Below are positions 13,946-57,678 of a stretch of 64,000 nucleotides of DNA, one piece after another. Below the pieces are notes generated by a model that saw nothing but the letters and a program-made list of their open reading frames with translations, had not been told where the DNA came from and did no database searches. Numbering within the stretch: the stretch's first letter is position 1; each line of letters starts with the position of its first letter. The translations under genes and the position numbers were made by a program. This DNA comes from Evansella sp. LMS18. GTDB lineage: Bacteria; Bacillota; Bacilli; Bacillales; Salisediminibacteriaceae. The DNA lies in assembly GCF_024362785.1 (NCBI RefSeq), contig NZ_CP093301.1, positions 4,340,001 to 4,404,000 on the forward strand, given 5' to 3'.

Positions 13946-14290
13946 TTATTTGTTCTTTAGATAGTAAATGTCTTTTTCGAGTTTGTTCACTTTGTCTGTA
14001 AGAAAATCGGTTCCCTTAATACGTGTTTCTGCTGCAAGTTCAAATTGGCTCCCAGCACCTTCCAATTTTGCATCCACAGCATCAAAGCGGCTGTGCATTT
14101 CGGAACGTAAATCTCCTAACTCAGATTTCACAGATGTCAATTCTGATTTCACCGATGTCATGTCAGATTTAAATGTAGACATGTCCGACTTCACTTCTGT
14201 AACCTCAGACTTCAATGTTGAAATATCTGATTTCACCGATGTCATGTCTTTACGCATCTCAGTTAATATCTCCAGAATCTGCTTTTCCAT
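13946..14290 (-). CDS. Heptad-repeat coiled-coil protein
   Basis: The 114-residue product has nine consecutive near-identical heptads of the type 'x-S-V-K-S-D/E-x' (about residues 14-78), encoded by a 21-nt tandem repeat. A second helical part with a Lys-rich end follows. Hydrophobic residues at positions a and d predict a parallel coiled coil. There is no signal peptide or membrane helix. ATG follows AGGAGGTGATATAA, a strong site. The function is unknown; it resembles many small Bacillus 'hypothetical' coiled coils. Confidence 0.75.
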   Translation of the reverse strand: MEKQILEILTEMRKDMTSVKSDISTLKSEVTEVKSDMSTFKSDMTSVKSELTSVKSELGDLRSEMHSRFDAVDAKLEGAGSQFELAAETRIKGTDFLTDKVNKLEKDIYYLKNK

Positions 14291-16511: not shown

Positions 16512-17252
16512 ATGTTTAATAAGACGTGCCCGGAAGAATATCCGATTAATTTGTTTGTGAATGGCAGGAACTTATTAACGATTCAGCTAACAGAAGTCCA
16601 TCTGGATGATTGGGCTGTTGGTTATATGTACGCGGAAGGGATTATCGAATCATCAGATGAAGTTCAGGAAATTGCGATTGACCCGTACCGGGGGAATATT
16701 CATGTCAAACTGGATAATCAGGTGGACATGGAGGAGTTTTTGAAAAAAAAGAAGACGATAACTGCCGGATGCGGGAAAGGCGCCACATTCCGTTCCATGA
16801 AAGAGATGAGCCATTTTAAGAGAGTGAAAGATGCGAGAAGTGTTTCTACCGAATTATTAAGGCGGAAAATGAAAGAAATGTATAAATTAACTCCGATTTA
16901 TCATCAGACCGGCGGCATGCATGCGGCGTGCATCATTGATGGGAATGACGAAATGATTGTGAGAGAGGACATTGGCAGACATAACGCCATTGACAAAGCA
17001 ATTGGTGCGGCACTGAAGAAAGGGTTGATTGGCCGAGATTGTGTGATTATGACAACGGGCCGGATTTCCATGGAGATGTGTTCGAAGGTGGCCCGCTTTG
17101 GAGTAGGGGTGGCTGCATCTAGGACCGCTTCGACTAATCTAGCCGTGGCGTTGGCGAAAGAGCTGAATGTTGATCTAGTAGGCTATGTCCGGGGCCAGTC
17201 CGCTTATGTATATACAGAAGGGAAGCGGGTGATGAAACTGGTGAACGGGTAG
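16512..17252 (+). CDS. fdhD: Formate dehydrogenase sulfurtransferase FdhD
   Basis: The 246-residue product matches FdhD, which passes sulfur from a cysteine desulfurase to the molybdenum cofactor of formate dehydrogenase. Visible blocks are 'DDWAVGYMYAEGII', the loop cysteine in 'TAGCGKG', 'GGMHAACI', 'VREDIGRHNAIDKAIG' and 'TTGRISMEMCSKVARFGV'. E. coli FdhD has CxxC in the loop; here the second cysteine is Gly (C-G-K-G). ATG follows GGGGGGAGGA. It is the first gene on the plus strand of the formate dehydrogenase cluster. Confidence 0.93.
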   Translation: MFNKTCPEEYPINLFVNGRNLLTIQLTEVHLDDWAVGYMYAEGIIESSDEVQEIAIDPYRGNIHVKLDNQVDMEEFLKKKKTITAGCGKGATFRSMKEMSHFKRVKDARSVSTELLRRKMKEMYKLTPIYHQTGGMHAACIIDGNDEMIVREDIGRHNAIDKAIGAALKKGLIGRDCVIMTTGRISMEMCSKVARFGVGVAASRTASTNLAVALAKELNVDLVGYVRGQSAYVYTEGKRVMKLVNG

Positions 17253-17307
17253 TGGGGTGGTTGGTTGGATAAATAAGGTTTTTGTTCGTTGGATTGGGTG
17301 GGTTATT

Positions 17308-17690
17308 CTCGAAATCAGGTGGTTCATTCGCGAAATCGGGCGTTCAATTCTCGAAATCGTGTGCTTCATTCTCGAAAAGGGGGAGTTAACAGGCGACCTG
17401 GAATTCAATCAACGAAATCGGGGTGGCTATCAACGAAATTGGTGTTTCAATAAACGAAATCAAGTGGTCAATCAACGAACTGGAATTCAATCAACGAAAT
17501 CGGTGGGTCAATCAACGAAATCTGGTGGTTAATCAACGAAAATGAGTAGTCAATCAACGAATTGGATTTCAATCAACGAAATCGGTGGGTCAATCAACGA
17601 AATTTGAGTTTCAATGAACGAAATCAAGTGATCAATCAGCGAACTGAATACCATTCATCGAAATCAGGTAGTCAACCTGCGAACAAAAAA
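17308..17690. repeat. Phased 21-bp degenerate repeat array (19 units), array 1
   Basis: Between fdhD and the dehydrogenase gene, 19 units share a CGAA(A/T) core. The CG cores lie at 17310, 331, 352, 373, 394, 413, 434, 455, 476, 495, 516, 537, 558, 577, 598, 619, 640, 659 and 680. From 17331 on, spacings run 21-21-21-19 again and again (82-bp super-period). The first units read ATTCTCGAAA, the middle ones ATCAACGAAA, the last ACCTGCGAAC. Open frames here are by-products, since 82 is not a multiple of 3. Confidence 0.9.
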
Positions 17691-17762
17691 CCATATACCA
17701 AAACCACCACCATCATAAAAAAATAAATTCCACTCTATTTTTACGAAAAAGGGGGATAAGCG

Positions 17763-20700
17763 ATGCTTACACGGCGCGAGTTCTTGAAGCGTGCTGGTGC
17801 TGTTACAGCTGGGGCAACAATTGCATCTGTGTCGGGGATTAATATCAAGCCGGTACAGGCTCAGGTTTCAAAAATCAAGCTGCAGGTGAAGGAAGGAAGA
17901 CAAGTTCCAAGTGTTTGCCCATATTGTTCCGTAGGATGCGGCATGATCATCACCGAATCCGAGGGGAAAATTATCAATATTGAAGGGAATCCGGACAGCC
18001 CGCTTAACTTAGGGTCATTATGTCCGAAAGGGGCGGCCGCATTTCAGCTAGTGGAAAACGATAATCGTCCGAAAGAGGTACTGTACCGTGCACCTCACTC
18101 CACATCATGGGAAACGCAGCCTCTCGACTGGGCGATGGACCGGATTGCGGAAAAGATTAAAGAAGACCGTGACAACAGCTTTATTGAAAAACAGGATGGA
18201 AAGCTTGTTAATGTGAACCCGGCTTTAGCATCTCTGGGCGGTTCCACCCTTGAAAATGAGTGGAATTATATACATGCGAAATTAATGCGTGGTTTAGGCG
18301 TTGTGAACGTCGAAAACCACGCCCGGATATGACACAGTTCTACAGTACCCGGTCTGGGTACTTCGTATGGCCGAGGCGGCGCGACTTCCACGGCGAGAGA
18401 TTTACAGGATGCTGATTGTATTGTCATTATGGGGTCAAACTTTGCGGAGAACCACCCGGTAGGTTTCCGTTTTGTTCTTAGAGCACGTGATAAGGGGGCG
18501 AAAGTCCTTCACATCGACCCTCGCTTCACACGAACTTCTGCAATGTCTTCAGATTACGTGCCAATGCGATCAGGTACAGACATTGCTTTTATCGGCGCGC
18601 TCATTAACTATGTAATTCAGAATGACAAGTTTTTTAAGGAGTATGTTGTAAATTACACGAATGCTCCGTTCATCGTGAAAGAGGAGTATAAGGATACAGA
18701 AGATCTGGAAGGTATTTTTTCAGGATTCGATCCGGACAAAAAAGCTTATGACAATGCAAGCTGGGCATATGAGCGGGAAGACCCTGTCGAGCCTGAAGGG
18801 GAGCCGGCAAACCTTTCAGAGCGTTTAGCCCGGGAAAAACTGGCGGGACGTCCAAAACGTGATGAAACGCTTCAGCATCCGAGAAGTGTGTTCCAGCTGA
18901 TGAAAAAGCATTACTCCCGCTACACACCGGAAATGGTAGAGGAAATTTGCGGAACATCGAAAGAAGAATTTCTCATGGTCGCGAAAACGGTAACAGCAAA
19001 CTCTAACGCAGAGCGAACCACGACATTCTGTTACGCCATGGGGTGGACCCAGCATACGTACGGAGTGCAGACGATCCGATCAGGCGCGATTCTTCAGGGG
19101 TTGCTTGGAAACATGGGACGTCCTGGCGGCGGTATTCTGGCATTAAGGGGACATGCGAACGTACAAGGGGCCACGGATTTATCCACCCTCTGGAACTCGC
19201 TCCCTGGATACCTGGATATGCCTGCAAAAGGGGCGGCACATGACACGCTGGAAGATTTCCTACGTGACAAAATGAGGCCTACAAGCTTCTGGCAGAACTA
19301 TCCTAAGTATTTAGTCAGCATTTTGAAAGCATGGTATGGGGATGCGGCAACACCAGCGAACGATTTTGCATATGAGGCCCTTCCGAAAACTCTGGGTAAC
19401 CATTCCCACTACAAAATGTTCGAAGATGCTTATAACGGTATCATCAAAGGGATGATGGTGATCGGGCAGAACCCTGCCGTAGGAGGCCAGAATGCGAGCT
19501 TCCACCGTAAAGCTTTGGGAAAACTCGACTGGCTTGTCGTAAAGGATCCATTCCTGATTGAAACGGCCACTTTCTGGTATGAAGCACCTGAAGTGAAGAA
19601 TGGTTCTGTCAAAGCAGAAGACATTGGCACCGAGGTATTTTATATGCCATCCACCGTTTTTGCCGAAACAGAGGGCAGTTTCACTAACACAAGCCGGCTT
19701 CTCCAGACGAAGGAAAAAGCAGCAGACCCTCCGGGAGACTGCCGTTCCGACCTCTGGTTCACTTATGAGCTTGGTAAGAGACTGAAGGAATTATATAAAG
19801 ATAGTAACGCCAAACGGGACTGGGGATTTAATCATCTTACCTGGGATTATGAACCGGATGTGAATCCGCGCTTTAAAATTCAGGAACCGAGTGAACATAA
19901 AATCGTGAAGGAAATCAATGGCTATGATGTAGCGACAGGTGCACCTGTTGGAGGTTTCGGAGATTTACAGGATGATGGTTCCACTGCTTGCGGCTGCTGG
20001 ATTTACTCCGGAGTTTTACCGGAAGAGTCCCTTAACCGGGCGGCAAATCGCGAAGGGGATGACTACCAGTATTTAAACTGGGGTTTCGCATGGCCGGCTA
20101 ACCGACGTAACCTCTACAATCGCGCATCTGCAAGGCCGGATGGAAAGCCATGGTCTGAGCGTAAAAAATATATTTGGTGGGATGCAGCGAAAGAGGAATG
20201 GACCGGGTATGACGTTCCTGACTTCGCAGCAACAAAAGCCCCGGATACACCAGCAGTGCCTGGCGGGGTAGGATTAGCAGCACAAAGCGGTAAGGATCCG
20301 TTTTTAATGAATCCGGATGGGGTTATCCAATTGTTTGCGCCTGCCGGTTTGGCGGACGGACCATTGCCAACCCATTATGAACCGCCGGATACACCTGTCT
20401 CAAAGAACATTTTATATCCTGATCAGACTTTCAGCCCGACAGCAGTCATTTTCGAGCATCTTCCTAATAACAAGGTCCATGGGGCGAACAACAGCAACTA
20501 TCCATTTGTTATTACAACGTACCGTGTAACGGAGCATCATTTAAGCGGCGCAATGACTCGCTGGCTCCCATGGCTTGCAGAGTTAATGCCTGAGCTGTTC
20601 CTGGAAATCAGTCCTGAGCTGGCTTCAGAGTTAGGGGTTCAAAGTAAAGATTTCGTCACCGTCGAAACAGGCCGTGGAAAAATCGAAGCGAGAGCGCTAG

Positions 20701-20909
20701 TAACAAAACGTATGCGGCCATTAAAAGTGGAAGGCAAAATGGTCCACACAGTGGGAATGCCGATTCACTGGGGCTATTCCGGTGTTGCAACAGGTTCAGT
20801 TCCAAATGATTTAAGTGCTATCGTTGCCGATCCGAACGTTTACATCCACTCTTCCAAGGCATTTACCTGTAACGTGAAAAAAGGCAGATTACCAGGAGGG
20901 GTAGTATAA
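17763..20909 (+). CDS. fdnG: Formate dehydrogenase catalytic subunit, selenocysteine-containing, Tat-exported
   Basis: The 1048-residue molybdopterin enzyme oxidises formate to CO2. It begins with a Tat signal (TRREFLKRAGA, to about residue 34), then a [4Fe-4S] motif C52-x2-C55-x3-C59 with a fourth Cys near residue 87. Bis-MGD-binding domains follow. An in-frame TGA at 18330-18332 (codon 190) sits in the context 'NHARI-U-HSSTV', matching the 'ARV-U-HGPTV' site of E. coli FdnG/FdoG. Downstream 'GRGGATST...DADCIVIMGSNFAENHPVG' continues in the same frame, so TGA is read as selenocysteine. A conventional gene caller would split it in two. E. coli FdnG is 1015 residues with Sec196. Confidence 0.92.
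18333..18370 (+). promoter_or_regulatory. Bacterial SECIS element
   Basis: Right after the UGA the mRNA can form AGTACCC-GGTCT-GGGTACT (18344-18362), extended below by TAC/GTA with a 2-nt bulge. The loop GGUCU begins 19 nt after the UGA, the same distance and sequence as in E. coli fdhF, where it binds SelB. Confidence 0.88.
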
Positions 20910-22673: not shown

Positions 22674-22734
22674 GATTGAAATCGTGGGGTCATGAAGGAA
22701 GTATTGAGTCCTGCGGATACACTCGGGTGTTTAA

Positions 22735-22826
22735 TGCGCGAAATCTAAGGTTGAATGCACGAAATCGAGAGTCTAATGAACGAAACCACCGATTCAATGA
22801 ACGATATGGCGGGCCATCAACAAAAT
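22735..22826. repeat. Phased 21-bp repeat array, array 2 (5 units)
   Basis: CGAAA-type cores at 22739, 22760, 22781, 22802 and 22821 (last CG mutated to CA). Spacings are 21-21-21-19, one full super-period of array 1. Confidence 0.8.
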
Positions 22827-35561: not shown

Positions 35562-36272
35562 ATGATGGAAGAAGTAATGGGTGTTGCCAATAGTGCCCCA
35601 CTTTGGATTATGGCTTTTATATTTGTTGCTATTGTAGCTTTCCAGGCGCTTATCTTTTTGAAAATAGCAAAGGAAAGCGCGCCAGATGTGGGACTCTCGA
35701 ACACGGATGTGAAAACTGCAATCAGGACAGGATTCATCAGCTCGATCGGTCCCTCTTTTGGAATTGCGATTGTTCTTGTTTCTTTAATTGCATTAATAGG
35801 TTCACCGCTGACGCTGATAAGAATCGGTATTATCGGTTCTGCGGCTACCGAGTCTTCGGCTGCGGTAATTGGTGCAAATGCGTTTGGGATGGAATTAAAC
35901 TCCCCGGACTTCACATTACAGGCCTTTAGTGCTGTCGTCTGGACGATGTGCTTAGGCGGAATGGGATGGCTGATCTTTACAGCGATTTTCACGAAGAGAC
36001 TCGGGAAAACACAGGAAAAAATCGAAAAGAAGAATCCAAAGGTAATGGCAGTTATTTCATTGGCAGCAATGTTAGGGGCGTTTGCTTACCTGGCAAGCCA
36101 GCAAATGGTTAACAGTATCAGCCACATTGTCGCAGGGGTTGCCGCGATTGCTGCCATGGTGATTATGATGAAAACCGCTGACAGAAAAGGTATAGCCTGG
36201 CTGAAAGAATGGGCGTTAGGTATAGCTATAGTGATAGGGATGACTACTGCATATTTCACGAGTTTGATTTGA
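35562..36272 (+). CDS. DUF5058 family membrane protein
   Basis: The 236-residue product has about six membrane helices and matches DUF5058, an uncharacterised membrane family. A conserved-looking 'FISSIGPSFGIAIVLVSLIALIG' and 'GSAATESSAAVIGANAFG' stretch sits in the first half. It is followed by another multi-helix protein and flanked by two amidohydrolase genes, so the pair could be a transporter for the substrate or product of these enzymes. Function is inference from context. ATGATG start after AAAGGAGGAAGA. Confidence 0.75.
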   Translation: MMEEVMGVANSAPLWIMAFIFVAIVAFQALIFLKIAKESAPDVGLSNTDVKTAIRTGFISSIGPSFGIAIVLVSLIALIGSPLTLIRIGIIGSAATESSAAVIGANAFGMELNSPDFTLQAFSAVVWTMCLGGMGWLIFTAIFTKRLGKTQEKIEKKNPKVMAVISLAAMLGAFAYLASQQMVNSISHIVAGVAAIAAMVIMMKTADRKGIAWLKEWALGIAIVIGMTTAYFTSLI

Positions 36273-49944: not shown

Positions 49945-50021
49945 TGATCAGATGCTTTCCTATAAGTTGACGAATAAATTCAGCCGTGTTTTAATAGAAA
50001 AAGTTTAATAGTTCAATGTTT

Positions 50022-50138
50022 TCTAGGGTTCCGTAATTTTTAAAATTAGTCTGGTCCGAGAGAAAACTCATAGCTATGCTATGCCACGGAGGGACAAAAG
50101 CCCGGGAGATTACTGAAAAGTATCTCCCGGGCTTTTTT
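50022..50138 (+). promoter_or_regulatory. Guanidine-I (ykkC) riboswitch with intrinsic terminator
   Basis: Conserved blocks of the ykkC class I motif appear in order: CTAGGGTTCCG (50023), CTGGTCCGAGAG (50051), CACGGAGGGACAAAAG (50085-50100) and CCCGGGAGA (50101). The last block also forms the terminator stem AAGCCCGGGAGAT / ATCTCCCGGGCTT (50098-50134) followed by TTTTAA, so ligand binding should prevent termination. The next gene is an EamA transporter at 50443. Confidence 0.9.
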
Positions 50139-50173
50139 AATTTAAACTAGTTGGGTAAATAGATTTTCTCCAT

Positions 50174-50350
50174 TTCGCTGATAGAAGTGTTGAGTTCGAG
50201 AATAGAAGTACCGATTTCGAGAATAAAACCCTTCATTTCGAGAATAAGACCGCCGTTTTCGAGAAGGAAATCTTCAATCGAGAATGGAAGTGCTGATTTC
50301 GAGAATAAAAACGTCATTTTTGAGAATAAAACCCTCCATTTCGAGAATGT
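50174..50350. repeat. Phased 21-bp repeat array, array 3 (9 units, minus orientation)
   Basis: TTTCGAGAAT-type units, the reverse complement of ATTCTCGAAA in array 1. Cores at 50176, 197, 218, 239, 260, 279, 300, 321 and 342; spacings 21-21-21-21-19-21-21-21. It lies in the leader between the riboswitch terminator and the transporter gene. Confidence 0.88.
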
Positions 50351-50442
50351 GCCCAGCCAGCTGGCAAAATTAGATTATGGGTAAATAAATAAGAAAACAA
50401 CAATTCATCAAATATACAACAGAAAGACAGCAGGTGATATAC

Positions 50443-57435: not shown

Positions 57436-57616
57436 ACCTGCGAAACAAGCAGGTGAATCAGCCGTAAACGGCCGTCCAACCGGCGAAAATAACGAACCAA
57501 CCTGCGATAACCGCTATCCAACCTGCGAAACAAGCGTCTTATTCTCGAAAATGCCTATCTCATTTTCGAAATCTGCCTTCCTATTCTCGAAAACGACTAC
57601 CCCATTCTCGAAAATC
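57436..57616. repeat. Phased 21-bp repeat array, array 4 (9 units)
   Basis: CG cores at 57441, 463, 484, 505, 526, 546, 567, 588 and 609; spacings 22-21-21-21-20-21-21-21. The first units read ACCTGCGAAA, the last four ATTCTCGAAA or ATTTTCGAAA. Confidence 0.85.
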
Positions 57617-57678
57617 TCCTCCCCGCTACCAAGACAACACTCCTCAAATAAATCATCATAAAATGTTCAAACAATTCA

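Follow-up and report, generated by a model that had tools for sequence, protein, structure and literature searches.

CGAA repeat arrays with a 21-21-21-19 bp rhythm in Evansella sp. LMS18 and other Bacillales

In plasmid partition and iteron arrays (ParR-parC, TubR-tubC), direct repeats spaced by a nearly integral number of helical turns seat a cooperative DNA-binding protein. The CGAA arrays described here are likewise direct repeats at near-integral helical turns (steps of 19 and 21 bp with a mean of about 20.5), but unlike plasmid partition sites they occupy dozens of chromosomal loci instead of one per replicon, and no partition or replication genes lie beside the longest of them. The FtsK-orienting KOPS, the SRS of SpoIIIE and Chi are isolated, leading-strand-oriented octamers scattered in coding DNA, which flip at the origin. 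A leading-strand bias flipping at the origin is also seen for the arrays of LMS18 and E. clarkii; these arrays, however, are intergenic and phased at 21 bp, and their bias is not universal, with Sporosarcina quadrami as the exception. In alpha-satellite higher-order repeats, monomers diverge while a multi-monomer block is repeated, and the same holds for the CGAA monomers and their multi-unit block, although in this case the arrays are bacterial, intergenic and tens to hundreds of bp long (the longest about 1.1 kb).

In bacterial minisatellites or VNTRs of the MIRU type, intergenic units are repeated in tandem at fixed loci, and close relatives differ in copy number. The CGAA arrays are similar on both counts, i.e. 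tandem units sit at a fixed locus and their number differs between LMS18 and E. clarkii (e.g. 25/4, 28/4 and 18/5 cores). Unlike VNTRs, they keep a strict 21-21-21-19 rhythm over unrelated linkers, show a uniform NNN in each array and are biased to the leading strand. They are not CRISPRs, since their linkers recur every 82 bp (77-82% identity) and are not unique spacers, and no cas genes are found beside the array studied here or beside the longest arrays. Nor is a known structured RNA indicated, as no Rfam family matches at the array.

REP/BIME elements are dispersed intergenic palindromic repeats of about 20-40 bp that fold and occur many times per genome, according to the part of the source drawn upon here (PMC3733652). 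The CGAA repeats are equally dispersed, intergenic and numerous; compared with the palindromes covered by that part of the source, they are polar direct repeats that fold no better than shuffled sequence, or worse. Finally, a helix-phased A-tract periodicity in prokaryotic genomes has been proposed to be relevant to nucleoid structure, in those parts of two further papers that are used here (PMC3940949, PMC3431218). The CGAA signal is also phased with the DNA helix, but where A-tracts, as treated in these parts, are weak genome-wide A/T statistics, the CGAA arrays are local and consist of a discrete 11-bp motif. No description of such arrays was found in the open-licence PMC literature, which is weak evidence of their novelty.

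The CGAA array upstream of the formate dehydrogenase gene

The window, i.e. the whole stretch of 64,000 nucleotides analysed here, carries a CGAA array at 17297..17692 (+ strand). It is located in the gap between an fdhD-like gene upstream (16512..17252, +; assigned from sequence and context) and the gene for the catalytic subunit of a formate dehydrogenase downstream (17763..20909, +), which consists of two open reading frames joined by an in-frame TGA (18331-18333). The context of this TGA, VENHARI-TGA-HSSTVPGLG, is kept in E. clarkii and in a third Evansella genome, and a tRNA-Sec at chromosome position 4870198-4870290 gives an Rfam match above the cut-off. With a conserved in-frame TGA as the sole split and a tRNA-Sec in the genome, 17763-20909 most likely encodes a formate dehydrogenase that contains selenocysteine.

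Eighteen exact CGAA cores start at 17310, 17331, 17352, 17373, 17413, 17434, 17455, 17476, 17495, 17516, 17537, 17558, 17577, 17598, 17619, 17640, 17659 and 17680. The single 40-bp gap in this series resolves into 21 + 19 once a degenerate core, CGAC (17394..17397, +), is counted, which completes the first 21-21-21-19 period. Over 17310-17680, this rhythm then runs exactly four times from 17331. Thus, both the 19 units with a CGAA core and the four full periods after the first unit, as claimed in a preliminary description of this DNA, are borne out by the core starts, and TRF independently reported a period of 82 bp with 3.3 copies (17394-17665). That description also held that three variants of the unit come in blocks, which is true of two of them. 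A TTCT-type block of four units (17304..17393, +; cores 17310, 17331, 17352 and 17373) is common to LMS18 and E. clarkii, where three such units are present, and mainly TCAA-type units make up most of the middle (17398..17658, +), covering about three 82-bp periods that are absent in the E. clarkii ortholog. The ends, however, are mixed: the last units (17659..17692, +) have a TCAT core at 17659 and a CCTG core at 17680, and ACCTGCGAA is a single unit, the last one, and does not form a block.

Other arrays of the window include a second, short one of about three units (22732..22785, +) and a fourth one in which CCTG-type units are followed by TTCT-type units (57472..57621, +). In the third array (50166..50356, -), CGAA is on the lagging strand, and the E. 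clarkii counterpart has seven cores. This array is situated downstream of a Guanidine-I riboswitch (50012-50110, +), the sole Rfam match in the window, in the order riboswitch, terminator-like hairpin, opposite-strand array and + strand gene. The window also contains a coding 21-bp tandem repeat (14121-14248), which belongs to a - strand open reading frame with repeated VKSDxSTxKSE heptads.

A common neighbour gene of the arrays was considered and rejected, the genes beside the ten longest arrays being mostly unrelated (NlpC/P60, OsmC, SDR, response regulator, QueC and others). A gene with a NERD (nuclease-related) domain adjoins two of these ten (L162:9242-10210 and L269:7336-8388), one in LMS18 and one in Sporolactobacillus putidus, which could be coincidence.

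Rhythm, unit anatomy and turnover

The genome-wide search for which the preliminary description had called returned 75 matches to the exact five-core 21-21-21-19 pattern (54 on the + and 21 on the - strand, in about 35 arrays) in the 4,903,744-bp chromosome, against 0 matches of the reversed-pattern control, and the rhythm is thus present well beyond the window. Arrays were sampled in 41 stretches of LMS18, i.e. forty 20-kb stretches, taken mainly around exact-pattern matches, and the window, as well as in about 50 stretches of E. clarkii; the 41 LMS18 stretches hold about 56 arrays, among them those of a minor family that follows a 20-21 beat. In the pooled 19/21 runs of all sampled arrays, successive 19s are separated by exactly three 21s in 47 of 59 cases (shuffles: mean 6.6, maximum 16), i.e. 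the 19/21 spacing is indeed non-random. In arrays with at least six cores, the spacings were 21 (372), 19 (97), 20 (4), 22 (3) and 18 bp (3), as counted by a run finder that admits near-phase steps only and therefore favours in-phase cores; 20-bp spacers are nearly absent (4/479). The best single period was 20.50 (29 long arrays). The longest array seen has 54 cores in about 1.1 kb (chromosome 2471779), and long arrays in general are built of 82-bp blocks, with linkers that recur at this period with the identity given above. A second family, TATCGGCGAAATC, which is unrelated in sequence and found at chromosome positions 35764, 40647, 1112183, 1401795 and 1460195, follows a 20-21 beat with a 41-bp period and the same 20.5-bp mean, and is without leading-strand bias.

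The array unit consists of the 11-bp motif AATNNNCGAAA and a linker of 10 or 8 bp. In the weighted consensus across arrays, positions 1-3 of the period read CGAAAtcGGGngttCAATNNN (21 bp) and position 4 reads CGAANNGGAATTCAATNNN (19 bp), i.e. the fourth unit has two bases fewer in its linker, whereas AAT and the following CGAAA are always the same distance apart. Inside an array, the trinucleotide preceding CGAA is uniform, but it is free from array to array: agreement in NNN is 79% between neighbouring units of one array, 86% between units 82 bp apart and 35% between units of different arrays. For linker offsets 5-8, the respective agreement is 31% (chance level), 77% and 37-40%. Duplication alone would homogenize both NNN and linkers. 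A single NNN class was found in 41 of the 75 complete 82-mers (about 3 expected at random), with class boundaries that were drawn after the variants had been seen. Arrays of the TTCT class share position-specific linkers with each other (0.50 vs 0.39), whereas in the TCAA-like and CCTG-like classes the rhythm persists with no position signal common to the linkers (0.43/0.42 and 0.36/0.36).

Aligned DNA of Evansella sp. LMS18 and E. clarkii is about 92% identical in coding and 90% in intergenic regions. CGAA cores, two or more and mostly in phase, are present in 42 of 43 orthologous E. clarkii intervals, two of which are about 2 kb long, where cores alone are weak evidence, and the E. clarkii stretches were partly chosen for holding arrays; in a batch picked by predicted position alone, the figure is 17 of 18. 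Core numbers at the same loci, however, can be very different (LMS18/E. clarkii: 25/4, 28/4, 24/6, 18/5 and 7/16). At the window locus, between fdhD and fdhF, E. clarkii has five cores, with TTCT units directly followed by CCTG/CCAG; the missing TCAA block has been either gained in LMS18 or lost in E. clarkii. Recent copying of this block from another array was rejected, since the best match is just 78% and no source was found. In the third Evansella genome, the fdhD-fdhF junction is empty, with no cores, and several other Evansella species are without arrays, which must thus be dispensable.

In alignable units, identity between the two species is 85-99% from offset -6 to offset +4 relative to the core and 66-78% in the linkers. 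Among aligned consecutive core pairs (those 17-23 bp apart), spacing is kept in 127 of 132 and differs in 5, while their linkers carry about 3.1 substitutions each (about 390 in total). In ordinary intergenic DNA of the same pair of species, there are 0.125 gap openings per substitution, which predicts about 49 indels vs the 5 found. Site and spacing are both under constraint in the two species, with linker divergence that may in part stem from misaligned paralogous units after turnover. In a different vein, E. clarkii 790001-810000 (the counterpart of LMS18 2204335) contains an unlike tandem repeat of about 53 bp, GAGCGGTAACGC...GCGTGCCCGCT, which can apparently form hairpins and adjoins two CGAA units.

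Strand orientation and distribution

On the LMS18 chromosome, DnaA is found at 1.930 Mb, and GC skew is negative below this position and positive above it as far as about 4.52 Mb, turning negative again from 4.64 Mb; this second switch puts the terminus near 4.58 Mb. CGAA is on the leading strand in 36 of the 41 LMS18 arrays with at least six cores (p = 8e-7). This includes 15 of 17 arrays between convergent genes (p = 0.002) and all six between divergent genes; between co-directional genes it applies to 11/11 sense and 4/6 antisense arrays. As convergent and divergent regions have no net gene direction, the bias tracks replication and not transcription. E. clarkii shows it as well (21/25), mostly at the same loci, so that the two species are not independent. 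Elsewhere, leading-strand arrays prevail in Sporolactobacillus putidus (8/9) and Ornithinibacillus contaminans (7/8), and Sporosarcina quadrami shows no strand bias (5/13 leading).

An even sample of the order Bacillales yielded the 82-bp rhythm in 7 of 299 genomes and 5 of 117 genera, and uniform 21-bp CGAA patterns in 94 genomes and 48 genera. Some of the latter are coding, 21 being a multiple of 3, and some uniform-21 genomes have many non-coding-looking arrays. Uniform-21 arrays carry genus-specific flanks, e.g. TTTATTGCGAAAT, TTGACCGAAG and GGCACGAACTCGG; for these genera the spacing comes from match lists only. The wider kind, then, is the 21-bp CGAA array, of which 21-21-21-19 is a recurrent form, and since uniform-21 arrays are the commoner ones and some genera keep to 21 throughout, a mean of 20.5 is no universal requirement. 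Among the matches listed in a scan of GTDB representatives, the multi-hit records are Bacillales (Sporolactobacillus, Sporosarcina quadrami, Fictibacillus macauensis, Halobacillus massiliensis, Bacillus sp. FJAT-49736 and Evansella clarkii), and the single matches listed from elsewhere appear to be due to chance, to simple repeats or to coding repeats. Unit sequences are wholly different between genera and the rhythm is shared. Every genus examined has a mean spacing of 20.4-20.6, which is not independent evidence for 20.5, because presence of the pattern was the criterion by which the genera had been chosen.

Possible protein binding, repeat turnover and other explanations

We give an even chance to the explanation that the arrays are helically phased rows of sites for one or more putative sequence-specific dsDNA-binding proteins, with turnover in 82-bp blocks. 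Each unit would then represent one 11-bp site and an unconstrained linker, 10 bp long or, in every fourth unit, 8 bp long, and with sites every 20.5 bp on average, these would stay near one helix face over hundreds of bp. NNN would be the array-specific flavour of the site, array length would change via gain or loss of four-unit blocks of 82 bp, and arrays would be kept preferentially on the leading strand. The putative reader may be a single sequence-specific dsDNA-binding protein or a small family of them. Spacing that is kept while linkers saturate suggests that something measures distance on double-stranded DNA, and as an average of 20.5 would not be needed by a single-stranded or RNA reader, it points to a reader of dsDNA. 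A cooperative binding array on one helix face had been among the ideas of the preliminary description; the conserved 11-bp motif, the array-uniform NNN and the constrained spacing speak in its favour, while the protein and its cooperative binding to one face are putative. Its role would probably lie in chromosome organization or in a process linked to replication direction rather than in the regulation of neighbour genes. Growth by copying of 82-bp blocks, another of these ideas, is supported as the mode of length change, by the different unit numbers in E. clarkii orthologs as well as by the 82-bp-block build of long arrays, and is compatible with a binding array.

If 82 bp correspond to eight turns, the implied value is 10.25 bp per turn. 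Relaxed B-DNA has about 10.5 bp per turn, and a shorter repeat is known for protein-wrapped DNA. Hence 10.25 bp could be a sign of DNA wrapped on protein, with the uniform-21 genera arguing against a universal value. Intrinsic curvature as a general cause was rejected by eye from the unit sequences of other genera.

The main rival of a phased binding array is a functionless, i.e. neutral or mildly selfish, minisatellite made of 82-bp higher-order units, which would expand or shrink by slippage or unequal exchange and simply inherit its rhythm. This is possible, though on the doubtful side. Big copy-number differences at orthologous loci are just what a neutral minisatellite would also show between close relatives, a higher-order structure is typical for unequal exchange, and the occurrence of arrays in the genus Evansella is patchy. 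Moreover, the position-specific linkers of the TTCT class suggest a common 82-bp ancestor, and the almost complete lack of 20-bp spacers, not expected from phase selection alone, is in keeping with an inherited 19-bp unit. By contrast, the TCAA-like and CCTG-like classes hold the rhythm without such a shared linker signal, NNN is uniform within arrays where linkers are at chance, and indels within units are about 10-fold rarer than the intergenic rate predicts. Nor does a minisatellite explain the leading-strand bias.

This bias would result from a dispersed repeat that inserts, like IS200/IS605-type elements, into the single-stranded DNA of replication forks and then grows in tandem with no need of a host function, which we nevertheless consider improbable. 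The bias does track replication and not transcription, the loci are many and intergenic, and there is one clean presence/absence difference of 103 bp between LMS18 and E. clarkii at chromosome 751951, but the latter could just as well reflect loss of the DNA from E. clarkii. With cores in nearly all orthologous E. clarkii intervals, the loci are old and fixed, and recent copying between arrays is not apparent (best cross-array identity about 70-84%). Terminal structures are missing, too, in agreement with the earlier observation that no mobile-element ends were seen, and the exact rhythm was not found in viral contigs, nor DNA similar to the arrays in plasmids, which leaves a phage or plasmid origin without support.

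It is very unlikely that the arrays are transcribed and affect the flanking genes as an RNA element or a 3' UTR feature. The 11 co-directional arrays with at least six cores that are sense to both neighbours would fit, but others are antisense to both, and between convergent genes orientation tracks the replichore. Furthermore, the structural RNA considered in the preliminary description is not supported by folding: compared with shuffles, the + strand of the window block folds worse (z +2.4) and its - strand equally well (z 0.0), 36 long arrays gave a mean z of about +1 on both strands with DNA folding parameters, and Rfam had no match at the window array. A protein-coding repeat can practically be dismissed, as was recognized from the start, since 82 is not a multiple of 3 and each period shifts the frame, indels between species are not multiples of 3 and the arrays sit between recognizable genes, with the open reading frames of about 90-150 aa across several arrays being spurious.

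Going beyond the phased binding array as such, it is conceivable, if doubtful, that these arrays represent a new class of chromosomal architecture element, which would be leading-strand-marked, helically phased and provided with an array-specific NNN for a putative protein family as reader, in which each 82-bp block would form a single repeat of protein and DNA, and which would occur with unrelated units in several genera of the Bacillales. Intergenic repeats of bacteria are for the most part palindromic or neutral, whereas in these arrays the sites keep to a spacing rule and the intervening sequence is free to change. If a protein does bind these arrays, it would be an abundant architectural factor that has been missed in the model Bacillus species, and the strand bias of the arrays opens a link to replication direction for study.
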